From NCBI GenBank assembly GCA_903871775.1, contig CAIQIA010000011.1, forward strand, positions 186,001-250,000: 64,000 nt of DNA, given 5' to 3'. The position numbers and the translations under genes were made by a program. Positions 7,104 through 34,983 of the stretch are shown here, one piece after another; the first letter of the stretch is position 1; each line of letters starts with the position of its first letter. The notes beneath the pieces were generated by a model, which saw nothing but the letters and a program-made list of their open reading frames with translations, made no database searches and was not told the origin of the DNA. The DNA is from an uncultured cyanobacterium. Lineage in GTDB: Bacteria; Cyanobacteriota; Cyanobacteriia; PCC-6307; Cyanobiaceae.

Positions 7104-8207
7104 GTGCCTGTCCCCGAGACGCTGCGGCGGCTGCTCAAGCCACCGATCACCCAGGCCTGGCCGGGTCTGATCGACAGCTACCGGCCCTGGTTGCCGGTGA
7201 CGGACCGCACACCGGTGGTGAGCCTCGGCGAAGGCGCGACGCCGCTGGTGCCGGCTCCGGCCCTCGAGCAACGGCTCGGGCGGGGAATCCGGGTGTGGCT
7301 CAAGGTCGACGGTCTCAACCCCACCGGCAGCTTCAAGGACCGGGGGATGACCATGGCGGTGAGCAAGGCCAAGGAAGACGGCGCCGAGGCGGTGATCTGC
7401 GCCAGCACGGGCAACACCTCGGCCGCCGCCGCCGCCTACGCCCGCCGCGGGGGCATGCGGGCCTATGTGCTCATCCCCGATGGCTACGTGGCCCAGGGCA
7501 AGCTCGCCCAGGCCCTTGTCTATGGCGCCGAGGTGCTGGCGGTGAAGGGCAACTTCGACCGGGCTCTGGCGATCGTCCGCGAGGTGGCCGAGCGCTATCC
7601 GGTGACCCTGGTCAACTCGCTCAACCCCTACCGGCTCCAGGGGCAGAAGACGGCCGCCTTCGAGATCGTCGACGTGCTCGGTGATGCCCCCGACTGGCTG
7701 TGCATTCCCATGGGCAACGCCGGCAACATCACGGCGTACTGGATGGGCTTTCAGGAATACCGGCAGAACGGTCGCAGCCGCGGCCTGCCGCGGATGATGG
7801 GCTTCCAGGCCGCCGGTGCGGCGCCGCTGGTGAGCGGCACCACCGTCGAAGACCCCGAAACCGTGGCGACGGCGATCCGCATCGGCAATCCCGCCAACCG
7901 GGCGCGGGCGCTGCAGGTGCGGGAGGAGAGCGGTGGTGGTTTCGCCGCCATCAGCGACGAGGCGATCCTCGAGGCCTACCGCTTCCTTGCCTCTCAGGAG
8001 GGCGTCTTCTGCGAACCGGCCAGCGCCGCATCGGTGGCGGGCCTGCTCAGCCGGGCCGAAGAGGTGCCGGCTGGAGCCCGGGTGGTGTGCGTGCTCACCG
8101 GCAATGGCCTGAAGGACCCCGGCACAGCCCTGGAGAACGGCAGTGCCGGCTTCCACGCCGGGCTGCAGCCCGACCTGGAGACCGTGGCGCGGGTGCTGGG
8201 GTTCTGA
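7104..8207 (+). CDS. thrC: Threonine synthase
   Basis: This PLP enzyme converts O-phosphohomoserine to threonine and phosphate in the last step of threonine synthesis. The 367-residue length is normal for the short bacterial type. The PLP lysine is K78 in NPTGSFKDRG. The phosphate-cradle loop and the STGNTSAAAAAYA motif follow at about residues 100-112, and SLNPYRLQGQKT near 175. The start is GTG 7104, the only reasonable start after the upstream gene. It is the last gene before the candidate origin and dnaN, as in several picocyanobacteria where thrC closes the numbered chromosome. Confidence 0.96.
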   Translation: MPVPETLRRLLKPPITQAWPGLIDSYRPWLPVTDRTPVVSLGEGATPLVPAPALEQRLGRGIRVWLKVDGLNPTGSFKDRGMTMAVSKAKEDGAEAVICASTGNTSAAAAAYARRGGMRAYVLIPDGYVAQGKLAQALVYGAEVLAVKGNFDRALAIVREVAERYPVTLVNSLNPYRLQGQKTAAFEIVDVLGDAPDWLCIPMGNAGNITAYWMGFQEYRQNGRSRGLPRMMGFQAAGAAPLVSGTTVEDPETVATAIRIGNPANRARALQVREESGGGFAAISDEAILEAYRFLASQEGVFCEPASAASVAGLLSRAEEVPAGARVVCVLTGNGLKDPGTALENGSAGFHAGLQPDLETVARVLGF

Positions 8208-8572
8208 GGCAACGGCGGCGGCCGGCCGGCGGACTGTCTGGGGAGCACGGGCGGCAAAGCTGCGGAGAACGGGTGGAGAACCGGGCGCCCCCCGATCCCA
8301 CGGTTCTCCCCAGGCTGCGGAGAATGGGGAGAACGCCGCTATCGTCCCCGATTGGATGAAAACCCTCCTCAGACCTGGGGAGGCAGCTGTCCAGGTCTGA
8401 CGGGGCTCCTCGATGTTTTCCACCATTTCCCCAGGCTCTACGACCACTGGCTGTTGGTCTTCCTTCTTGAAATCCTTTGAACCTATGGACAGGAAGTGGG
8501 GGGTTCGGTGGGCCCGCATTGCGCTTCCGGGGCCGGTGTGGAAGCGTGGTGTGACCTCCGGCGGCCGTGGCG
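8208..8572. other. Candidate replication origin (oriC) upstream of dnaN
   Basis: This 365-base gap holds no convincing gene. It carries at least six 9-mers close to the DnaA box TTATCCACA and its cyanobacterial variant TTTTCCACA. On the minus strand these are TTCTCCGCA (8261-8269 and 8316-8324), TTCTCCACC (8272-8280) and TTCTCCCCA (8325-8333). On the plus strand they are TTCTCCCCA (8304-8312) and TTTTCCACC (8416-8424). A 10-bp inverted repeat GTTCTCCCCA / TGGGGAGAAC (8303-8312, 8325-8334) is built from two of them. An AT-richer patch lies at 8455-8490. In Synechococcus elongatus the origin lies next to dnaN, and the flanking thrC and dnaN fit. None of the boxes matches the consensus perfectly. 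Confidence 0.55.
8369..8400. repeat. Perfect 10-bp inverted repeat downstream of thrC
   Basis: TCAGACCTGG (8369-8378) and CCAGGTCTGA (8391-8400) are exact reverse complements around a 12-base loop. The hairpin lies 161 bases past the thrC stop, inside the candidate origin. No T-run follows directly, so it is a poor intrinsic terminator. It could be an origin structure or a weak terminator. Confidence 0.5.
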
Positions 8573-9733
8573 ATGAAGGTGGTCTGCAGCCAGTCAGAAC
8601 TCAGCGCGAGCCTGCAGCTCGTGAGCCGGGCGATCGCCGCTCGCCCGACCCATCCGGTGCTGGCGAACGTGCTCGTGGCGGCCGATGCCGCCGCCGGTCG
8701 CCTCAGCCTCACCGGCTTTGACCTCAGCCTCGGCATCCAGACCAGCTTTCCTGCCGCCGTCGAGGCCAGCGGCGCCATCACCTTGCCCGCCCGCCTGCTC
8801 GGAGACATCGTCAGCCGCCTTCCCCCCGAGGGCCCCCTCACCCTGGCGGTGGCCGAAGGGGACGAGCAGGCCCACCTCTCGGCCCTCAGCGGCAGCTACC
8901 AGGTGCGTGGCCTCACCGCCGAAGACTTCCCCGACCTGCCCCTGGTCCAGTCGGGCCAGACCCTGCAGCTCAGTGGCACGGCCATGGTCGAGGGGCTGCG
9001 CCGCACCCTCTTCGCCGCCAGTGGCGATGAGGCCAAGCAGATCCTCACCGGGGTGCACCTGCGCGTCGACGCCGCCGGGCTCGAATTCGCCGCCACCGAC
9101 GGCCATCGCCTGGCGGTGCTGCGCAATGCCGGTGCCGAGGCGGAATCGACGGCCACGACCGGCGACACCGTTGACAGCTTCGCCGTGACCGTGCCCGCCC
9201 GCTCCCTGCGCGAGCTGGAACGGCTGCTGTCGGCCCGCAGCGGCGACCAGCCCCTGAGCCTCTTCTGCGACAGGGGGCAGATCGTCTTCCTCTGGGAGGA
9301 CCAGGTGCTTACCAGCCGCACCCTGGAGGGCACCTACCCCAACTACGGCCAGCTGGTGCCCGACAGCTTCAGCCGAGCGGTGCGGGTCGAACGCCGGCCC
9401 CTCGTGGGGGCCCTCGAGCGCATCGCCGTGCTGGCCGATCAGCAGAGCAGCGTGGTCAAGCTGCGGGTCGAAGGGGCCAGCGCCGGGCGGCTGCAGATCA
9501 GCGCCGATGCCCAGGACGTGGGCAGCGGCTCCGAGTCGCTGGCGGCCAGCATCGAGGGTGACCCCTTCGAGATCGCCTTCAACGTGCGTTACCTGCTCGA
9601 TGGCCTCAAGGTGATGCCCGATGCCGAGGTCGAGCTGCGCTGCAACGCCCCCACCAGCCCGGCGGTGTTCGTCGGCACTGATGCCGTCGAGCGCTTCACG
9701 TACCTGGTCATGCCCGTGCAGATCCGCAGCTGA
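8573..9733 (+). CDS. dnaN: DNA polymerase III beta subunit (sliding clamp)
   Basis: DnaN is the ring clamp that holds DNA polymerase III and other factors on DNA. The product of 386 residues has the three-fold clamp repeat length. The N-terminus MKVVCSQSEL matches picocyanobacterial clamps, and the C-terminus TYLVMPVQIRS carries the usual (M/L)P(V/M)R-like ending that lines the binding pocket. ATG 8573 is preferred over GTG 8567 because it gives the conserved N-terminus. It is the first gene after the candidate origin and is followed after 7 bases by the PRC-barrel gene. Confidence 0.97.
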   Translation: MKVVCSQSELSASLQLVSRAIAARPTHPVLANVLVAADAAAGRLSLTGFDLSLGIQTSFPAAVEASGAITLPARLLGDIVSRLPPEGPLTLAVAEGDEQAHLSALSGSYQVRGLTAEDFPDLPLVQSGQTLQLSGTAMVEGLRRTLFAASGDEAKQILTGVHLRVDAAGLEFAATDGHRLAVLRNAGAEAESTATTGDTVDSFAVTVPARSLRELERLLSARSGDQPLSLFCDRGQIVFLWEDQVLTSRTLEGTYPNYGQLVPDSFSRAVRVERRPLVGALERIAVLADQQSSVVKLRVEGASAGRLQISADAQDVGSGSESLAASIEGDPFEIAFNVRYLLDGLKVMPDAEVELRCNAPTSPAVFVGTDAVERFTYLVMPVQIRS

Positions 9734-19303: not shown

Positions 19304-20257
19304 CTAGGGGCTGCGGGTGGCGCTGCCTGCCGCCGCCTGCAGGTTGCGCCGCCACATCCAGGGGCGGATGCGGCGCAGGGCCGAAGCCCGAAGGGCCTCA
19401 TCCCAGCGCTGGTCATCCCAGCCCAGCAGGGTGCCGCTGTCGCTCGAGAGGATCCAGTCGCGGGGGCGGCAGTCGGGATCGTCGGGGGCCGGCGGCAGCT
19501 CCTGGTTCCAGGGGCAGGCCTCCTGGCAGAGGTCGCAGCCCGCCACCCAGCCCTGCAGCTGGGCGCTGATGGCGGCGGGCAGCACCGGGTCGCGGTTCTC
19601 GATCGTGTGGTACGCGATGCAGCGGCGGCTGTCGACCACGAATGGTTCGCGGATCGCCCCGGTGGGGCAGGCCGGCAGGCAGCGGCTGCAGCTGCCGCAC
19701 TGGGGCCGGGCCGGGGTGTCGGCGGGCAGGGGCAGGTCGGTGATCAGCGCCCCCAGCAGCAGCCACGACCCCCGCCGGGGGTGGATCAGGTTGCCGTGCT
19801 TGCCGATCCAGCCCAGGCCGGCCTCTTCGGCCCAGGCCTTTTCCATCAGGGGGGCGGCGTCGACGCAGACCCGCCAGCGGCAGTCGGGCCGTCGCTGCTG
19901 CAGCCAGCGCCCCAGCCGTCGCAGCCGGCCGTCGATGACGCGGTGGTAGTCGCGGCCCCAGCCGTAACGGGCGATGCGGGGGGCCCGGGGGTCCTGGCGT
20001 TCGGGGCGGCTGTAGTCGAGGGCCACGAGCAGCAGGCTGGCGGCGCCGGGCAGCAGGGCCTGCACCTGCCGCCGGCGCGGGTCGTGCATCCAGGCCAGGT
20101 CGGCGGCATGGCCGGCCGCCAGCCAGCGTTCCAGGGCTTCGGTGCGCAGCTGCAGCCGCCCACTGCCCGCGGCGCTGGCCAGCCCCGCCAGGGCGAAGCC
20201 TGCGGCCAGGGCCTCGGCCTTGAGGTCGGCGGCCAGGTCAGCCAGGCGATCGGCCAT
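19304..20257 (-). CDS. queG: Epoxyqueuosine reductase
   Basis: QueG is a cobalamin- and iron-sulfur-dependent enzyme that reduces epoxyqueuosine to queuosine in tRNA wobble position 34. The 317-residue product has the QueG landmarks: CVDAAPLMEKAWAEEAGLGWIGKHGNLI near residue 130-160, and two ferredoxin-type cysteine clusters (CGSCSRCLPACPTGA near 187 and CDLCQEACPWN near 242). The start at 20257 gives a short, helical N-terminus typical of the family. The upstream neighbour is divergent (50 bases between starts). Confidence 0.95.
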   Translation of the reverse strand: MADRLADLAADLKAEALAAGFALAGLASAAGSGRLQLRTEALERWLAAGHAADLAWMHDPRRRQVQALLPGAASLLLVALDYSRPERQDPRAPRIARYGWGRDYHRVIDGRLRRLGRWLQQRRPDCRWRVCVDAAPLMEKAWAEEAGLGWIGKHGNLIHPRRGSWLLLGALITDLPLPADTPARPQCGSCSRCLPACPTGAIREPFVVDSRRCIAYHTIENRDPVLPAAISAQLQGWVAGCDLCQEACPWNQELPPAPDDPDCRPRDWILSSDSGTLLGWDDQRWDEALRASALRRIRPWMWRRNLQAAAGSATRSP

Positions 20258-28884: not shown

Positions 28885-30167
28885 GCAGGCCGGCGGCGTT
28901 GGTGGTGGCGGGGGGTGGAGCGGCCGGTTTTCTGGCGGCCATCACCGCGGCTGAGGCCGGTGTGGCGGATGTGCATGTGCTCGAGGCCACGGCCGAACCG
29001 CTGACGAAGGTGCGCATCAGCGGCGGCGGTCGCTGCAATGTGACCCATGCCTGCTGGGATCCGCTGACGCTGGTGGGCCATTACCCGCGGGGCAGCCGGG
29101 CCCTGCGCGGACCCTTCAGCCGGTTTGCCCCAGGGGATGCCGTCGCCTGGTTCGCCGACCACGGCGTTGAGCTGATCACCGAAGCCGATGGGCGCATGTT
29201 TCCGAGCACCCACAGTTCGGCCACGGTGGTGGCTGCATTGCGTACGGCGGCACGGCGGGCGGGGGTGCAGCTGCACAGCCGATGTGCGTTGCGGGGGGTG
29301 GTGGCCCCTGCGGGGCCGGCTGAACCGTTCGGATTGCAGTTGCGGGGGGAGGGCAGTGGGGCGGCACCGGTGGCCTGCCGGCGGTTGCTGCTGGCGACCG
29401 GTGGCCATCCCAGCGGCCGGGCATTGGCGGCGCAGCTGGGCCATCGGCTGCAGGCGCCGGTGCCGTCGTTGTTCACCGTGCGGCTGCACGAGCCACGGCT
29501 GCAGGCCCTGGCGGGGCTGGTGCAGGAGCCGGTGGGGCTTGAGCTGCAGATCGAGGGGGTGGCCCGCCCGTGGCGCCAGCGGGGGCCGCTGCTGCTCACC
29601 CACTGGGGTTGCAGCGGGCCGGCATTGCTGCGGCTCACGGCCTTTGCCGCCCGCGATCTGGCGGCGGCGGGTTACCGCGGATGGCTCACGGTCGACTGGA
29701 CCGGTGGCCTGCCGGCGGCCGAGGTGCAGGAGGGTCTGCGGCACCAGCGGCAACAGCATGGCGGCCGCACCCTGGGTGCCCAGCGGCCTGTACCAGCGTT
29801 GAGGCGACGGCTGTGGCTGGCGTTGCTGGATCAGGCCCAGCTGGCGGCCGATCTGTGCTGGGCGGCATTGCCACGGGCGGGGGAGCAACGGTTGCTGCAG
29901 GGTCTGCTGGTGAGCAGGTACGCGATCGTGGGGCGTGGGCCCTTCGGTGAAGAATTCGTGACGGCCGGTGGGGTCGATCTGGGCGAGGTGAATCTGGCAA
30001 CCATGGAAAGCCGCCGGGTGAGCGGCCTGCACCTGGCGGGTGAACTGCTGGATGTGGATGGTGTGACCGGCGGCTTCAACTTTCAGCACTGCTGGACCAG
30101 CGGCTGGCTCGCCGGCCAGGCGATCGCGGCGGCATTGGCCGACAGTGGCTCTGGTGATCACGGGTAG
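28881..30167 (+). CDS. HI0933/BaiN-family NAD(P)/FAD-dependent oxidoreductase
   Basis: The 428-residue flavoprotein shows the FAD dinucleotide motif GGGAAGFLAAI (about residues 10-20), the family motif KVRISGGGRCNVTHA (about 42) and the C-terminal TAGGVDLGEVNLATMESR and VTGGFNFQHCWTSGW. The family includes YhiN/HI0933 proteins of uncertain substrate. It is translationally coupled to msrB through ATGA, hinting at a redox-related job. It is the last native gene before the low-GC insertion; a perfect palindrome lies 12 bases after its stop. Confidence 0.9.
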   Translation: MSRPAALVVAGGGAAGFLAAITAAEAGVADVHVLEATAEPLTKVRISGGGRCNVTHACWDPLTLVGHYPRGSRALRGPFSRFAPGDAVAWFADHGVELITEADGRMFPSTHSSATVVAALRTAARRAGVQLHSRCALRGVVAPAGPAEPFGLQLRGEGSGAAPVACRRLLLATGGHPSGRALAAQLGHRLQAPVPSLFTVRLHEPRLQALAGLVQEPVGLELQIEGVARPWRQRGPLLLTHWGCSGPALLRLTAFAARDLAAAGYRGWLTVDWTGGLPAAEVQEGLRHQRQQHGGRTLGAQRPVPALRRRLWLALLDQAQLAADLCWAALPRAGEQRLLQGLLVSRYAIVGRGPFGEEFVTAGGVDLGEVNLATMESRRVSGLHLAGELLDVDGVTGGFNFQHCWTSGWLAGQAIAAALADSGSGDHG

Positions 30168-30178
30168 CGCTCGGAGGG

Positions 30179-30200
30179 TTTTATGCGGGTCTGCATAAAA
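30179..30200. repeat. Perfect 22-bp palindrome at the left border of the low-GC insertion
   Basis: TTTTATGC (30179-30186) and GCATAAAA (30193-30200) are exact reverse complements around the 6-base spacer GGGTCT. The stem is AT-rich and lacks a T-tail, so it is a poor terminator. The geometry (8-bp arms, 6-bp spacer) is that of an operator or of a tyrosine-recombinase core site. It sits exactly where GC content falls. No second copy is seen on the right side of the insertion. Confidence 0.5.
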
Positions 30201-30258
30201 GTCGTCGATTGGATCAAGGATCCCCTGGGTGACCAGTCTGTCTGGGTTTTGGGGCGTT

Positions 30259-30295
30259 ACCACTGGCTGAGCTGGGGATTTATGCTGCCAGTGGT
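30259..30295. repeat. 9-bp inverted repeat upstream of the mrr-like gene
   Basis: ACCACTGGC (30259-30267) pairs perfectly with GCCAGTGGT (30287-30295) across 19 bases, ending 57 bases before the start of the restriction gene. It may be an operator or a 5' leader hairpin. The preceding GCGTTACC (30254-30261) resembles the GCGTTAGC of the attC right end at 31309-31316, but that likeness is weak. The remaining bases of the gap 30168-30352 show no gene. Confidence 0.4.
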
Positions 30296-30352
30296 TGTGA
30301 GTTGCTTTGGTTCAGCGGATCCGTCCAATCAGCGTTGAACCAAGATTGGGCC

Positions 30353-31204
30353 ATGGCAAAGGGACCTCAGTTCACTCGGTATATCCTTCCCATCCTCCAC
30401 GTGCTGAGGGAGATGGGAGGATCAGCCACAGCGGCTGAGGTTACTGATGCGGTTATAGAGCGCGAAGACTTGCCGGAGGAGTTGCTTGAGCAGACAAACA
30501 AGAATGGCCAGTCCAAAGTCCGAAACCAGATTGCATGGGCGCGGATGTATTTGGTCCATTCAGGACATATTGACTCATCTACGCGGGGCGTCTGGAGGCT
30601 AACTGACAAGGGCCAACACGAGGATTTGGCGAAGCTCAATGTCTCTTCGCTGTTTAAGGGTGTTCAAAGTGTATTCAAGGCAAATGCGGAGGATCTCACC
30701 CCAGCAAAGCCCTCTGAATCTGTCGAGGAAGCCGAGAGTCGATTTGAAGCTGAGGAGACAGCGCTTCTCCCGGTGATCAAATCACTCAGTCCCGAAGGAT
30801 TTGAGCGCCTGTGTCAACGGTTATTGCGGGAGTACGGATTCCAGAATGTGCGAGTAACCGGACGCTCCGGTGATGGAGGAATCGACGGCGAAGGGATACT
30901 TGAGATTAATCCACTACTCAGCTTCAAAGTCTTATTTCAGTGCAAGCGTTACCAGGGCTCTGTAGGGGCCGCAATGATCAGAGACTTTCGTGGAGCGCTC
31001 ATCGGTAAGGCTGACAAGGGGATTCTGCTCACAACGGGAAGCTTCACAATGGATGCCAAGCGCGAGGCAGTTAGAGACGGTGCTAATCCAATCGAATTGG
31101 TTGACGGTGAAAAGCTTGTCAGGATGTTTGAGCGTCTTGAGCTGGGTGTCAAGCCTAAAGTTGTCTACGAAGTTGACTTGGAGTTCTTCAATGACTTCAA
31201 GTGA
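30353..31204 (+). CDS. mrr: Mrr-type restriction endonuclease
   Basis: Mrr is a type IV restriction enzyme that cuts modified DNA. From ATG 30353 the product has 283 residues. The N-terminal part (about 1-90) is a winged-helix Mrr_N domain (FTRYILPILHVLREMGG then QNQIAW-like VRNQIAWARMYL). The C-terminal Mrr catalytic domain has SPEGFERLCQRLLREYGF, GDGGIDGEGIL with the catalytic Asp, and FQCKRYQGS, the PD-(D/E)xK-type QxK motif. All active-site residues look intact. GC content and codon use are plainly lower than in the flanks, a sign of transfer. The stop is followed after 9 bases by an attC-like site, as for a gene cassette. Confidence 0.9.
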   Translation: MAKGPQFTRYILPILHVLREMGGSATAAEVTDAVIEREDLPEELLEQTNKNGQSKVRNQIAWARMYLVHSGHIDSSTRGVWRLTDKGQHEDLAKLNVSSLFKGVQSVFKANAEDLTPAKPSESVEEAESRFEAEETALLPVIKSLSPEGFERLCQRLLREYGFQNVRVTGRSGDGGIDGEGILEINPLLSFKVLFQCKRYQGSVGAAMIRDFRGALIGKADKGILLTTGSFTMDAKREAVRDGANPIELVDGEKLVRMFERLELGVKPKVVYEVDLEFFNDFK

Positions 31205-31213
31205 GCAGGGTCT

Positions 31214-31316
31214 TTCTAACACGGCCATGCACCTGACCCGCCACCGCAGATTCACCATGCCCACTGAGTATCTTCTCTTATGGCTCTTTGCAGGCAGGTG
31301 ATGGCCAGCGTTAGCA
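31214..31316 (+). other. Integron-type attC-like recombination site
   Basis: The left end CTAACACGGCCATGCACCTG (31216-31235) and the right end CAGGTGATGGCCAGCGTTAG (31295-31314) form an imperfect inverted repeat. Read against the reverse complement of the right arm, CTAAC, GGCCAT and CACCTG match exactly. One unpaired G (31229) interrupts the left arm and one extra base the right arm. The outer boxes TTCTAAC (31214-31220) and GTTAGCA (31310-31316) match the R'' (RYYYAAC) and R' (GTTRRRY) boxes except at single positions. Total length (103 bases), a bulged base and position 9 bases after a stop codon are all typical of attC sites. No integrase gene is in the window. Confidence 0.72.
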
Positions 31317-31383
31317 AGAGCAGGGGGGATGCGCGGAGGTTGCCGCTGTGGCCACAATGTGATCACGTCTGCGGGGTGGGGTG

Positions 31384-31626
31384 ATGGTTCGAGCAAAGCT
31401 GGTCAAAATCGGTAACTCGAGAGGGATTCGCCTCGCCAAGCCGTTGCTTGAGGTTGCAGGGTTGGCTGAGGAAGTCGAGATTGAGGCTTCTCCAGGGGTT
31501 CTGACCATCAGGCCCTCTGCTCACTCGAGGGCTGGCTGGGCAGAGGCAGCAGCGTCGGTCTAGCCGGAGGGGCTTCTTGATGAGATGAGCGCTACACGGT
31601 TTGATGATGAAGAGTGGTCATGGTGA
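31384..31626 (+). pseudogene. mazE: MazE-like antitoxin interrupted by an in-frame TAG
   Basis: The frame starts at ATG 31384 with the AbrB/MazE DNA-binding motif MVRAKLVKIGNSRGIRLAKPLL split as usual into VKIGNSRGIR and LAKPLLE. It meets TAG at 31561-31563 after 59 residues. Reading through gives PEGLLDEMSATRFDDEEWSW and a TGA at 31624-31626, which is the acidic, Trp-rich toxin-binding C-terminus normal for MazE. One base change (CAG to TAG) would explain it. The full-length frame overlaps the mazF start (ATGGTGA), the usual coupling. The truncated product would keep DNA binding but lose the toxin-neutralising tail. A sequencing error or stop-codon readthrough is possible. Confidence 0.8.
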
Positions 31627-31913
31627 CTGAGGAGCGTGTCTCACGAGGTGACATCTTCCTTGTCGCGTTGAATCCCACCCGAGGGTCTGAAATCAGGAAG
31701 GCCAGGCCTTGTGTCATTGTGGCGCCGCTCACCACCGGCGGCCATCCATACCCGTTCCGTGTGCGTAGCAAGTTAGATGGCAAAGACGGTTATGTTGTAG
31801 CTGACCAGCTCAGGGCCGTAGATAAGGAACGTCTCGTCAGGCGATTGGGGAGCCTGTCGGAGACTACGTTGACTGAGCTGCTGGGTGTTCTTCAGGCGAT
31901 GTTCGCTGTGTAG
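31620..31913 (+). CDS. mazF: MazF-family mRNA interferase toxin
   Basis: MazF cuts mRNA at short single-strand sites and is normally neutralised by MazE. The 97-residue product (ATG 31620) has RGDIFLVALNPTRGSEIRKARP, split here as RGDIFLVALNPTRGSE and the catalytic-arginine segment IRKARPCVIV, followed by the conserved VADQLRAVDKERL motif. It appears full length and undamaged. Two residues more are possible from GTG 31614. The start overlaps the full-length antitoxin frame. An attC-like half-site begins 7 bases after the stop. Intact toxin next to a nonsense-mutated antitoxin is odd and discussed in the findings. Confidence 0.9.
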   Translation: MVTEERVSRGDIFLVALNPTRGSEIRKARPCVIVAPLTTGGHPYPFRVRSKLDGKDGYVVADQLRAVDKERLVRRLGSLSETTLTELLGVLQAMFAV

Positions 31914-31919
31914 AGGCCT

Positions 31920-31954
31920 TGCTAACACGCCCCTGCACCTGGCCCGCCAGCGCA
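31920..31954 (+). other. Left half of a second attC-like site
   Basis: GCTAACACGCCCCTGCACCTG (31921 onward) and the following GGCCCGCCAGCGCA repeat the left arm of the attC-like site at 31214-31250 with only a few changes (shared CTAACACG-CC-TGCACCTG-CCCGCCA-CGCA). It begins 7 bases after the mazF stop. No matching right half (CAGGTG...GTTAG) is recognisable in the next 250 bases, so the site is truncated or badly decayed. The remaining gap to 32184 contains no gene that I can support. Confidence 0.6.
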
Positions 31955-32184
31955 TATTCCTGTTGGCTGTGTTGACACCCCAAGGTCACAACGTCAGAGT
32001 CTCCTGCCTGTCAGGTTCATACATCTTCTTGGGGGCAGCTGCATTCCGGCGAGCCATGGCTAGCCTCCGACCGTGGTCTGTCGTGGTGCATCGTCCCCCC
32101 GTCATCTGGTGACCATAGGCGGCATCTCTTGGCAAACAACGCGCCAGCAGATTTCAGCTGATCTGATCTGACCCCCCCCTCCTG

Positions 32185-34983
32185 ATGCCCCACTGCCTCC
32201 GGCCCACCCTGATCGTCGCCCTGGCTGGACTCACCGTTCAAGCTCCCCTGCTGGCTCGTCCGCTGCAGCCAGCTGCCGACAGCGCGCAGACGCGCCTGGG
32301 CACCTTGCAGCTCGAGAACGGCTACCCCAGCAAGGCCACCGCCGCCAGGTTGTACGACGAGCTTGATTTTCAGCGGGCCACCCAGGCTTACCTCTGGGCC
32401 CTGCCGGCGGTGGGTTTCAAGGCCCTCTACGACGCCCAGGCCCGCACCTTTGGGGCCCGCAACGGTGATGTGGTGCTCTACCAGACCCTCAAGGACAAGG
32501 CGGGGATGCTCACCCCCAACATCACCACCCTCTATGCCTTCAGCTTCTGGGATCTGGCCCGCCAGGGCCCCCTGGTGGTCGAGGTGCCTGAGGGTGCCAC
32601 CGCTGGAGGTGTGCTCGACATCTGGCAGCAGCCCATCACCGACATGGGCCAGACCGGGCCCGACCAGGGTGCCGGCGGCCGTTACCTGATCCTTCCCCCA
32701 GGCAGCCCTGATGTCGATGCGCCCGGCTATCGCATCGTGCGTTCCCCCAGCCACCAGATCTGGTTCGGCACCCGCGGTCTCGATCCCGACAAGGCCGCCG
32801 CTGAAGCCACCGTGCGCCGTCATCGCCTCTACAGCTGGAGTCAACGCGACAACCCCCCCGTCACCGCCTACATCCCCGTGGCCGGTCGCGCCTGGCAGTC
32901 GGCCCAGCCCAGCACCCTCAGCTACTGGCGCCTGCTCAGTGAGCTGTACGCCAACGAACCAGTCGCCCCCCGCGATCGGATGCTCTTCGGCATGCTGGCG
33001 CCCCTCGGCATCAGCCCCGGCCAGCCGTTTCAGCCCGATGCCCGCCAGGCCCGCCTCCTGGGTGATGCCGCCCGGGTCGGTGATCTGATGGCCCGCACCA
33101 TCGCCTACGACAAGCGCATCCCTGGCGCCACCGTCTACCCCGGCAAGCACTGGGAGTACGCGGTGCTGTTTGACCTTGACCACGAAACCCCAGACCGTCG
33201 CCGCGTGCAGCTTGATGAACGCAGCTCCTGGTTTTATGAGGCGATCGGCATGTCGGCTGGCATGCAGGGACGCATCGTGGGCTTCGGGCAGGTCTACCTC
33301 GAAGCCTCCAAAGACAAGGCCGGCCGCTGGCTCGACGGTGGCCGTACCTACCGCCTGCGCGTGCCTGCCGCGGCACCGGTGAAGCAGTTCTGGTCCATCA
33401 CCCTCTACGACAACCTCAGCCGTGGTCCGCTGATCACCGATCAGGGCGCCGCCGACATCAGCTCGCGCAAGCCCGACCTGGTCAGCAACCCTGATGGTTC
33501 GGTCGATGTCACCTTCGGGCCGGTGCGACCCGCCGGTGCCAGCAACTGGATCAAGACCACCCCCGGCAAGGGCTGGTTCGCTTATTTCCGCCTCTACGGC
33601 CCCACCGAGCCCTACTTCACCAAGGCCTGGCAGCTCAACGACATCGAACCGCTGCAGCTTCAGAAGGTCAGCCCCGGGCTCTCTGCCGATGAGGCCCGCG
33701 CCATCGCCAGGGATGCCTGGCTCTATGCCTATGCACCGCTGCAGGGCTATCAGACCCTCTGGAACCAGACCCAGAACAAGGCCTTTCCGGGTTACGTGGG
33801 TGGCTTCAACCGCTTCCGCCATTACGCCCGTTCGGCCACCCCAGCCGACAAGGACATCGTCACCCCCAACAACGACACCCCCTATTCCTGGGCCTGGCTT
33901 GATCTGCGGGCCGAGCCCATGGTGCTGTCGCTGCCGGAGGTCCCGCCGCCGCGCTACTACGTGAACCAGTGGTTTGACCTTTACACCCACAACTTCGCCT
34001 ACACAGGGGTCCGTTCCACCGGCCGCCAGGCTGGCACTTACCTCTTTGCCGGCCCCCACTGGACGGGCCCCGTGCCCAGGGGTGTCACGCGGGTGTTCCG
34101 CTCCGAGACCGATGTCGTCGGCACCCTCACCCGCACCCAGCTCAACGGTCCTGACGACATTCCGGCGTTGCAGGCGCTCCAGGCGCAATACATCCTCACG
34201 CCCCTATCCCGTTTTCTCGGCAACCCCGCTCCGCCCGCTGCGCCGCCCATCGCCTGGCCCGTCTGGGATGCCGGCAAAGCCGAAGGAATCGGCTTCATCA
34301 GCTATCTCAATGCGCTGCTGCCGTTCATGCCCACCGTGCCTTCAGAGCGCACGATGATGGCCCGCTTCGCACGCATCGGCATCGGGCCTGGCCTGCCGTT
34401 TGATCCCGATCGGCTTGACCCCGCCATCCGTGGCGCCATGGCCGAAGGTGTCGCCAGTGCCGCCGCCGATCTCAAGGCCAGGGCCCTTGCCCAGACCAGC
34501 TCCCAGGGGTTCTTCGGCACCCGGGACGAGCTGGGGCCTGACTATCTCACCTTCCGTTCGATGGGGGCCCTGCTGGGCATCTACGGCAACAGTAGCGCCG
34601 AGGCCATCTACGCCAGCCAGCAGACCGGACCTGACGGTCAGGTGCTTGATGGCCGCCGCCGCTGGGTGCTGCGCTTTGAGCCCGGCCAGCTGCCGCCGGT
34701 CTCTGAGTTCTGGTCGGTGACCATGTACAACCTGCCCGAACGTCTGCTGGTCGATAACCCCATCCAGCGTTACTCGATCGGTGATCGCACCCCCGGCCTG
34801 CAGCTGGGTCCCGATGGATCCCTCGAGATCTACATCCAGAACGACAACCCCGGTGCCGACAAAGCCGCCAACTGGTTGCCTGCCCCAGCCGGTCCTTTCT
34901 TCTTCGTCGCCCGTCTCTACGCCCCCCAGCCCCCCGCCCTTGATGGCCGCTGGACCCTGCCAAGGCTCATCGAACGGCCCTGA
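32185..34983 (+). CDS. Exported tandem DUF1254-DUF1214 protein (two fused copies)
   Basis: The 932-residue product begins with a signal peptide (about 1-25, ending LLARP). It contains two full DUF1254 + DUF1214 units. Copy 1: DUF1254 from QRATQAYLWALPAVGF (about 62) and DUF1214 around FWSITLYDNLSRGPLI (about 402). Copy 2: DUF1254 from AIARDAWLYAYAPLQGYQ (about 505) with NNDTPYSWAWLDLR, and DUF1214 around FWSVTMYNLPERLLVDNP (about 840). Single-unit proteins are usually 350-480 residues. The enzymatic role of the family is unknown. GC is near the genome average, unlike the neighbouring cassette region. It converges with pilC, 16 bases away. Confidence 0.88.
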   Translation: MPHCLRPTLIVALAGLTVQAPLLARPLQPAADSAQTRLGTLQLENGYPSKATAARLYDELDFQRATQAYLWALPAVGFKALYDAQARTFGARNGDVVLYQTLKDKAGMLTPNITTLYAFSFWDLARQGPLVVEVPEGATAGGVLDIWQQPITDMGQTGPDQGAGGRYLILPPGSPDVDAPGYRIVRSPSHQIWFGTRGLDPDKAAAEATVRRHRLYSWSQRDNPPVTAYIPVAGRAWQSAQPSTLSYWRLLSELYANEPVAPRDRMLFGMLAPLGISPGQPFQPDARQARLLGDAARVGDLMARTIAYDKRIPGATVYPGKHWEYAVLFDLDHETPDRRRVQLDERSSWFYEAIGMSAGMQGRIVGFGQVYLEASKDKAGRWLDGGRTYRLRVPAAAPVKQFWSITLYDNLSRGPLITDQGAADISSRKPDLVSNPDGSVDVTFGPVRPAGASNWIKTTPGKGWFAYFRLYGPTEPYFTKAWQLNDIEPLQLQKVSPGLSADEARAIARDAWLYAYAPLQGYQTLWNQTQNKAFPGYVGGFNRFRHYARSATPADKDIVTPNNDTPYSWAWLDLRAEPMVLSLPEVPPPRYYVNQWFDLYTHNFAYTGVRSTGRQAGTYLFAGPHWTGPVPRGVTRVFRSETDVVGTLTRTQLNGPDDIPALQALQAQYILTPLSRFLGNPAPPAAPPIAWPVWDAGKAEGIGFISYLNALLPFMPTVPSERTMMARFARIGIGPGLPFDPDRLDPAIRGAMAEGVASAAADLKARALAQTSSQGFFGTRDELGPDYLTFRSMGALLGIYGNSSAEAIYASQQTGPDGQVLDGRRRWVLRFEPGQLPPVSEFWSVTMYNLPERLLVDNPIQRYSIGDRTPGLQLGPDGSLEIYIQNDNPGADKAANWLPAPAGPFFFVARLYAPQPPALDGRWTLPRLIERP

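Follow-up and report, generated by a model that had tools for sequence, protein, structure and literature searches.

The thrC-dnaN spacer of an uncultured GC-rich picocyanobacterium as the very probable chromosomal oriC, with candidate cytosine-centred DnaA-trios

Locus and Genomic Setting

Does a GC-rich picocyanobacterium start replicating its chromosome in the short thrC-dnaN spacer, which would then be its oriC, and how might its DnaA use a site in which both boxes and unwinding triplets depart from the familiar motifs? The question was raised by a sequence-only reading of a 64-kb stretch of DNA (referred to as the window), which corresponds to C11:186001-250000 of a 2.57-Mb, 27-contig draft genome. 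That reading placed a probable origin in a 365-base spacer between the two genes, and both the spacer and its neighbors are confirmed, with thrC and dnaN identified by scores exceeding the NCBIfam cut-offs:

7104-8207, plus strand: thrC, threonine synthase, flanking gene (TIGR00260, 323.5 bits, cut-off 167.1)
8208-8572, no strand: very probable oriC spacer between thrC and dnaN, 365 bases, 66% GC, with the T-A skew breakpoint at window position 8401
8573-9733, plus strand: dnaN, DNA polymerase III beta clamp (TIGR00663, 301.7 bits, cut-off 137.65; alternative start GTG at 8567)

The dnaA gene lies away from the spacer, at C10:27245-28639 (TIGR00362, 516 bits), and encodes an intact DNA-binding domain. 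Scans of the 64-kb window with Rfam (gathering threshold) and for tRNAs gave no matches. The nearest named relative found is a MAG filed as Synechococcus sp. UW140 (L164), whose DnaN is 95% identical. One further genome of this genus (G001) was included in the searches and is referred to as the sister genome.

For comparison, we used 201 genomes of the family, in 184 of which dnaN was found. Spacers were read at 109 loci, a choice that favored contigs with sequence ahead of dnaN, and one of 5 bases (L040) was dropped to leave 108, our own included; at three loci with no detectable thrC (L086, L122, and L123), 400 bases were used instead. Comparisons with published systems refer to the passages of the cited papers that treat the feature in question.

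The oriC of Synechococcus elongatus PCC 7942 lies beside dnaN, carries TTTTCCACA boxes, has dnaA elsewhere, and has ccbZp as its other neighbor (PMC3480399). Its position beside dnaN was shown by experiment (PMC7198777), and cyanobacterial oriC usually adjoins dnaN (PMC6323995). The spacer described here is similar in its location upstream of dnaN, its DnaA-box cluster, and its distant dnaA gene, but differs in having thrC as a neighbor, upstream boxes of the form TTCTCCNCM, and no TTTTCCACA. The sequence-only reading equated the place with the S. elongatus origin; this holds for the dnaN side only, since the other neighbor printed for S. elongatus is ccbZp (PMC3480399).

DnaA Boxes in the Spacer

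Exactly six 9-mers of the form TTNTCCNCN are present in 8208-8572, and the first five of them fall within 73 bases (8261-8333), in line with the earlier count of at least six, five of them within 75 bases. Five more occur elsewhere in the window. The five upstream boxes, with offsets measured from the DUE-side box 2 described below, are:

8261-8269, minus strand: DnaA box TTCTCCGCA, offset -164; box at the same offset and strand in 11/108 spacers
8272-8280, minus strand: DnaA box TTCTCCACC, offset -153; same offset in 6/108 spacers
8304-8312, plus strand: DnaA box TTCTCCCCA, left arm of an inverted pair, offset -121; same offset in 34/108 spacers
8316-8324, minus strand: DnaA box TTCTCCGCA, offset -109; same offset in 5/108 spacers with at most one mismatch
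8325-8333, minus strand: DnaA box TTCTCCCCA, right arm of the inverted pair, offset -100; same offset in 35/108 spacers

With the sixth at offset -9, all six boxes (-164, -153, -121, -109, -100, and -9) occupy offsets that are also used in other spacers, those at -153 and -109 rarely (6 and 5 of 108, respectively). The arms of the inverted pair are 21 bases apart, and a plus-minus pair with this spacing recurs in 39 of the 108 spacers; the 10-bp inverted repeat that two boxes had been said to form is indeed there (GTTCTCCCCA at 8303-8312 and TGGGGAGAAC at 8325-8334). The claim that TTCTCC replaces TTATCC or TTTTCC holds for five of the six sites, while one reads TTTTCC. A separate, perfect 8-base inverted repeat (CAGACCTG...CAGGTCTG, window 8370-8399) lies between both box groups, and the sister genome differs there.

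The clustering is far beyond chance. None of 3000 first-order simulations reached six sites with either spacer or window composition (maximum 3 and 2, respectively), and four copies of TTCTCCNCA, the number in the spacer, were never reached either (maximum 1 per simulation; 3000 each with spacer and window composition). Genome-wide, TTCTCCNCA has 34 copies in the 2.57-Mb draft, and the four inside the spacer are the only ones less than 1 kb apart, the next closest pair being separated by 1466 bases. With one mismatch allowed, there are 8 matches in 200 bases at the spacer, and no more than 3 anywhere else along the 384-kb contig. The simulations bear out the earlier expectation that these 9-mers be more frequent here than in random sequence of the same composition. 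Across the family, every real spacer contains at least one box, while the reversed controls are box-free in 81 of 108. The grouping of the DnaA boxes and their non-coding setting are among the features by which a DnaA-dependent oriC is recognized.

Strand-Composition Skew

A GC-skew minimum had been expected at the spacer. On contig C11, on which skew was tested and which represents 15% of the 27-contig draft, G-C skew has no switch there: its best change is at 255 kb and is equaled by 409 of 500 shuffles, and the cumulative extremes are at 19,683 and 341,912, so that G-C skew on this contig is uninformative. For the combined keto skew (GT minus AC), the best change point falls at about 255 kb (about 69 kb in window coordinates), about 61 kb from the spacer, and is reached by 2 of 500 shuffles.

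T-A skew behaves differently. Its raw cumulative minimum is at C11:191402, with a change point at 191 kb that none of 500 block shuffles reached. To remove gene direction, 301 genes were called on C11 by codon usage, with thrC, dnaN, and purL recovered among them. If the origin is at the spacer, the third-codon T-A skew of leading-strand genes is +0.473 (left) and +0.436 (right), against +0.163 and +0.133 in lagging genes; third-codon G-C skew has no such pattern (leading -0.097 and -0.086 vs. lagging -0.059 and -0.097). The best between-gene T-A breakpoint on the 384-kb contig is at C11:194401, i.e., window position 8401, between the centers of thrC and dnaN, and exceeds a model without breakpoint by 199.8 log-likelihood units. 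All breakpoints within 10 units of the best lie in C11:188,904-196,918, and the bootstrap 95% range (200 gene bootstraps) is C11:191,629-196,681. As gene orientation is without leading bias (the leading share of coding bases is 44.5% and 39.9% on the two sides), the T-A signal is not due to gene direction. On C11 it is thus A/T rather than G/C that carries the strand bias. An origin, as opposed to a terminus, is usually marked by an excess of T on the leading strand.

The spacer therefore has a T-A strand-composition switch, and on C11 it lacks the GC-skew switch that is usual, though not universal, at an oriC. Set beside the S. elongatus oriC, GC skew is flat on this contig and T-A skew is strong. 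A clear V-shaped GC skew has been described for most cyanobacteria of clades C-G (PMC7198777), which would count against the site if the genus studied here belongs to them. Third-codon T-A skew can thus pinpoint an origin that GC skew leaves unmarked.

The Candidate Unwinding Module and Its Conservation

Of the downstream part of the spacer, the earlier list of boxes included a single box, and the remainder (8425-8489) went unnoticed. The features of this part, together with a block closer to dnaN, are:

8416-8424, plus strand: DUE-side DnaA box 1, TTTTCCACC; box at offset -9 on the plus strand in 56/108 spacers
8425-8433, plus strand: DUE-side DnaA box 2, ATTTCCCCA, abutting box 1; box 2 and the first triplets are conserved
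8434-8437, plus strand: GC-rich GGCT gap that separates box 2 from the trios
8438-8449, minus strand: DnaA-trio-like triplets CTACGACCACTG; top strand CTA CGA CCA CTG, captured strand 3'-GAT GCT GGT GAC-5'
8452-8489, no strand: stretch of lower GC content and candidate DNA unwinding element (15/38 bases G/C vs. 66% in the spacer)
8516-8549, plus strand: conserved block before dnaN, GCATTGCG...GGTGTGGAAGCGTGG, strongly conserved in close relatives

The counterpart of 8452-8489 is T-rich in relatives, and, judged by base composition, the spacer has the AT-richer candidate unwinding element that would be expected beside the boxes of an oriC. The block at 8516-8549 may be a DnaA box, albeit a weak one (GCTTCCACA), or else belong to the leader of dnaN; TGTGGAAG or its complement is present in 59 of the 109 spacers.

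To align the module across the family, we used an anchor of 14 fixed letters, TTTCCNCANNNCCTACNAC, in which trio 1 is fully specified, trio 2 at its first and third letters, and trio 3 at its first letter, while the middles of trios 2-4 are left free. Box 2 and the first triplets match it with 0-2 mismatches in 104 of the 108 spacers (own included) and with 3-4 in the other 4, while no reversed control comes within 2 mismatches (0/108; range 4-6). The four weak rows (L054, L057, L097, and L123) may be misplaced, as their mismatch counts reach the control range. Over 24 fixed letters, the module is found with at most 7 mismatches in 101/108 spacers vs. 0/108 reversed controls. Its exact short form (box-gap-CTAC, TTTCCNCANNNNCTACNAC), with no mismatch allowed, has a single occurrence in the genome. 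Matches with 2 mismatches were rejected as chance-like, with 49 places (the exact one included) vs. 82 for the reversed control.

The same arrangement reaches beyond the family. Distant cyanobacteria have TTTTCCACA, 4 bases, and CTACTACTAC at the same place before dnaN (e.g., L206, L208, L214, and L232), and a homologous module with regular trios is present in outgroups. Among 80 named loci, the best match is without CTAC trios in 15, in a scan that keeps one best match per locus and can overlook a module, as it probably did in L200, whose contig equals in length that of L098, a locus with the module in the 24-letter comparison; a stricter regular expression missed 32 of the 80, many with a plain module, and was not used for calling absence. 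In eight Nostoc/Anabaena/Trichormus/Calothrix loci (L231, L234, L236, L237, L238, L240, L241, and L242), the best match is without CTAC trios, and CTACTAC occurs in none of the eight within the 700 bases searched before dnaN, although boxes are still present in two. This accords with the reported DnaA-independent replication of Nostoc sp. PCC 7120 (PMC7198777).

Some cyanobacteria carry dnaA yet replicate without using it (PMC7198777), and the spacer might likewise be a vestigial origin, with remnant sites and replication independent of DnaA as in Synechocystis 6803. The irregular GC skew would fit, as it is a trait of DnaA-independent cyanobacteria (PMC7198777), but a sharp T-A switch at the locus needs long-term initiation there, and the boxes and module are conserved, by contrast with the eight Nostoc-type loci; we therefore regard a vestigial origin as very unlikely. 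It is even less likely that the boxes merely regulate dnaN transcription while the origin lies elsewhere. They are upstream of dnaN, and a conserved block directly precedes the gene, but the skew switch falls between thrC and dnaN, an unwinding-type module is present, and elsewhere in the genome there are at most two strict TTNTCCACA, TTCTCCNCA, or TTTTCCNCA sites per 1 kb.

We conclude that the thrC-dnaN spacer is, with high confidence, the chromosomal oriC of this GC-rich picocyanobacterium. The boxes, their recurring spacing, the conserved module, the strand switch, and a dnaA with intact contact residues were all observed directly, and the original claim of a chromosomal origin is strongly supported by the strand-corrected T-A skew, the conserved architecture, and the once-per-genome box-gap-CTAC pattern. 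Counted against it are the flat G-C skew at the spacer, the keto change at 255 kb, the missing TTTTCCACA, and trios that fail the three-NAN rule (see below).

How the site might work can be predicted by analogy with B. subtilis and S. elongatus, from which binding, oligomerization, base capture, and opening are extrapolated. DnaA would bind the GC-shifted upstream boxes (8261-8333) and the abutting boxes at 8416-8433, and would then be passed from box 2 over the GGCT gap to the bottom strand at 8438-8449. There, each DnaA protomer would capture the first two bases of a triplet, namely G and then an amino-bearing A or C, after which the less GC-rich stretch at about 8452-8489 would open and two forks would depart in opposite directions.

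Candidate DnaA-trios With Cytosine for Adenine

In B. subtilis, the basal unwinding system (BUS) consists of a pair of boxes, a GC-rich gap, and DnaA-trios with the consensus 3'-GAT (PMC8287927, PMC8235120). The module described here is similar in its tandem boxes, 4-base GC-rich gap, G-first captured triplets, and less GC-rich DNA beyond, but differs in that the middle base in the family is often C rather than A, and GAT GCT GGT GAC in the window fails the requirement for three consecutive NAN triplets. The published rule calls for at least three consecutive 3'-NAN-5' triplets no more than 16 bp away from a DnaA box (PMC8287927). As for distance, 4 bases separate the first triplet from box 2; as for the triplets, the longest NAN run in the window is 1 (offsets 0-7). 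A simplified version of the NAN rule is passed by 30 of the 108 spacers, including 23/27 in the AT-richest quarter and 0/27 in the GC-richest, and NAN runs shorten with rising GC. The module stands in the place of the BUS and, by analogy, would work like it, yet is outside the published rule.

What replaces adenine is not random. Over the four triplets of the 108 spacers (captured strand), the first base is G in 417/432, the middle base is A in 268, C in 147, G in 10, and T in 7, and the third is T in 290, C in 128, A in 11, and G in 3; G[AC][CT] fits all four triplets in 82 of 108 rows and fails in 26. In trios 2-4, whose middles the anchor leaves free, the middle base is A in 165, C in 144, G in 8, and T in 7, whereas the next four triplets downstream, taken as a control, have C in 47, G in 48, and T in 62. 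Restriction to the 104 best-anchored rows gives C 141, G 4, and T 6 vs. C 47, G 41, and T 60 downstream. The Fisher test on these middles ignores relatedness. At triplet 2, C becomes more frequent with GC and dominates the GC-richest quarter (n = 27; C 20, A 5, G 1, and T 1), and it is seen in 14 of the 35 genera, compared with 2 for G. The only trio count that allows for relatedness comes from a quick tree of at most 190 ThrC residues in 103 rows, on which the fewest A/C changes are 18, 11, and 16 at triplets 2, 3, and 4, respectively (21, 16, and 19 for all states). A-to-G is a transition and the ordinary mutation toward GC while A-to-C is a transversion, and selection is therefore the likelier reason for the excess of C.

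DnaA itself is consistent with such a substitution. The base-capturing residues (B. subtilis N187, I190, I193, R202, and E228) are identical in 30/30 DnaA loci, our own included. Their numbering was transferred by alignment to 8btg, which we take to be the B. subtilis DnaA structure. Cytosine serves at the captured middle position in B. subtilis assays of laboratory mutants, and it was suggested that DnaA homologs might accept other bases, as cytosine shares the amino group of adenine (PMC10721633). We favor, with some reservation, the reading that GC-rich picocyanobacteria rewrote their trios from 3'-GAT to 3'-G(A/C)(T/C), that DnaA recognizes the middle base by its amino group, and that cytosine-centered trios are a working natural variant. 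If DnaA reads this group, cytosine would be allowed in nature as well as in B. subtilis constructs. The organism in the window would then represent a late stage of trio drift: its GAT GCT GGT GAC has one C middle and one G middle, with A only in GAT and GAC, and the sister genome has GAT GCC GAC GCC. Because of the G-middle triplet, the genome here is not the best example of the A/C rule.

It is also possible, although we think it distinctly less likely, that the changes reflect decay or a local T-to-G bias, and that DnaA opens the origin with no more than one or two triplets that contain adenine, together with the AT-richer stretch. The G-middle GGT of the window, whose A middles are limited to GAT and GAC, the shrinking of NAN runs with GC, and the 26 of 108 rows in which G[AC][CT] does not fit all four triplets are as decay would have them; moreover, the rows are related, so that counts overstate independence, and the downstream control region may carry constraints of its own. 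Decay should, however, yield G as well as C, which is not what the middles of trios 2-4 show against the downstream control, either in all rows or in the 104 best-anchored ones. Nor does it account for the parsimony minimum of repeated A/C changes, the first base still being G in 417/432 triplets, or the identical capture residues in 30/30 DnaA loci.

No report of cytosine-centered trios in cyanobacteria was found among the openly accessible papers searched, and the A-to-C swap in the trios is the new point here, GC-shifted boxes having been published already. With A-to-C recurring and A-to-G rare, the family amounts to a naturally replicated test of how DnaA captures bases during origin opening. 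In practice, an origin finder that requires three adenine-centered triplets would miss most GC-rich members of the family.

Position 3 of the Boxes and DnaA Specificity

The sequence-only reading proposed that DnaA of this organism reads a shifted motif. The commonest strict boxes in the 109 spacers are TTTTCCCCA (74) and TTTTCCACA (41), with TTCTCCCCA at 16, and those of relatives read TTTTCC[C/A]CA. The four strict boxes (TTNTCCNCA) of our spacer, like the three of the sister genome, all have C at position 3. Ranked by GC, the loci have T/C at position 3 in a ratio of 38/0 in the AT-richest sixth, and 20/9 and 11/10 in the two GC-richest sixths, the last of which includes this genus as the source of 7 of its 10 position-3 C boxes. 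Without this genus, position-3 C still tracks GC (Spearman 0.33, p 0.001, 92 spacers).

The base contacts of DnaA domain IV are at E. coli positions 399, 423, 432-435, and 438-439 (PMC5043019). Among 30 DnaA loci, our own included, none of the contacts is unique to this organism: P423, K432, D433, H434, T436, and Y439 are invariant in 30/30, including relatives with TTTTCC boxes, M438 is present in 29/30, and T435 in 11/30 (our own and 10 of the other 29). All 30 have Q at the position of E. coli R399. Chain 3pvp, presumably M. tuberculosis DnaA, also has Q at 399 in the alignment. The M. tuberculosis DnaA box is TTGTCCACA (PMC4285127). Tolerance at position 3 would thus seem to extend across the whole family.

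A DnaA of changed specificity that prefers TTCTCC would explain why every strict box has C at position 3 (4/4 in the spacer and 3/3 in the sister genome), and Q does replace E. coli R399. This explanation is nevertheless improbable, as none of the contact residues sets this organism apart among the 30 DnaA loci, TTTTCC users included, TTTTCC and ATTTCC are retained in the two DUE-side boxes of the spacer, and position-3 C follows GC even without this genus. With GC-shifted boxes already published, the proposal of a shifted motif is not upheld. Most likely, the T-to-C change at position 3 of the boxes and the A-to-C change in the trios represent GC drift within the tolerance of an unchanged DnaA.

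Similar shifts have been described elsewhere. GC-shifted boxes were noted in DoriC 10 for Cyanobium gracile PCC 6307 (PMC6323995), likewise a GC-rich cyanobacterium in which A or T of TTTTCCACA is swapped for G or C; the passage on it gives no positions and no changed trios, while here there is position-3 C in four strict boxes together with the module. High-GC actinomycetes have DnaA boxes of the form TT(G/C)TCCACA (PMC4285127), similar in having G or C at position 3 in a GC-rich genome but belonging to another phylum, and the four strict boxes here have C or G at position 7.

Box-Like Sites and Other Observations Elsewhere in the Genome

Genome-wide, TTNTCCACA has 9 sites and TTTTCCNCA 14. 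As for a rival origin elsewhere, the boxes offered only two close pairs, and this candidate was rejected. One pair consists of two TTTTCCCCA boxes 23 bases apart (G000:C8:11087-11118), and the other of TTTTCCCCA and TTCTCCCCA 42 bases apart (G000:C27:199925-199975); both are perhaps DnaA-titrating or regulatory sites.

The sole TTTTCCACA of the genome, with a nearby TTTCCACAG, is at C11:374750-374859 (L051:14750-14859). On one side of it is an ORF that looks by eye like an integrase (L051:13535-14743), and on the other a large ORF that resembles a primase/helicase (L051:15134-17827). Given these ORFs, the pair was rejected as a rival origin; it more probably belongs to a mobile element, and might mark where an integrated one replicates.

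Within the window, GC falls to 56-64% and local GC skew rises to about 0.16 at about 29000-33000, where the ORF at 30302-31204 resembles an Mrr-type restriction endonuclease by eye. From the GC dip and this ORF, the stretch may have been acquired recently.
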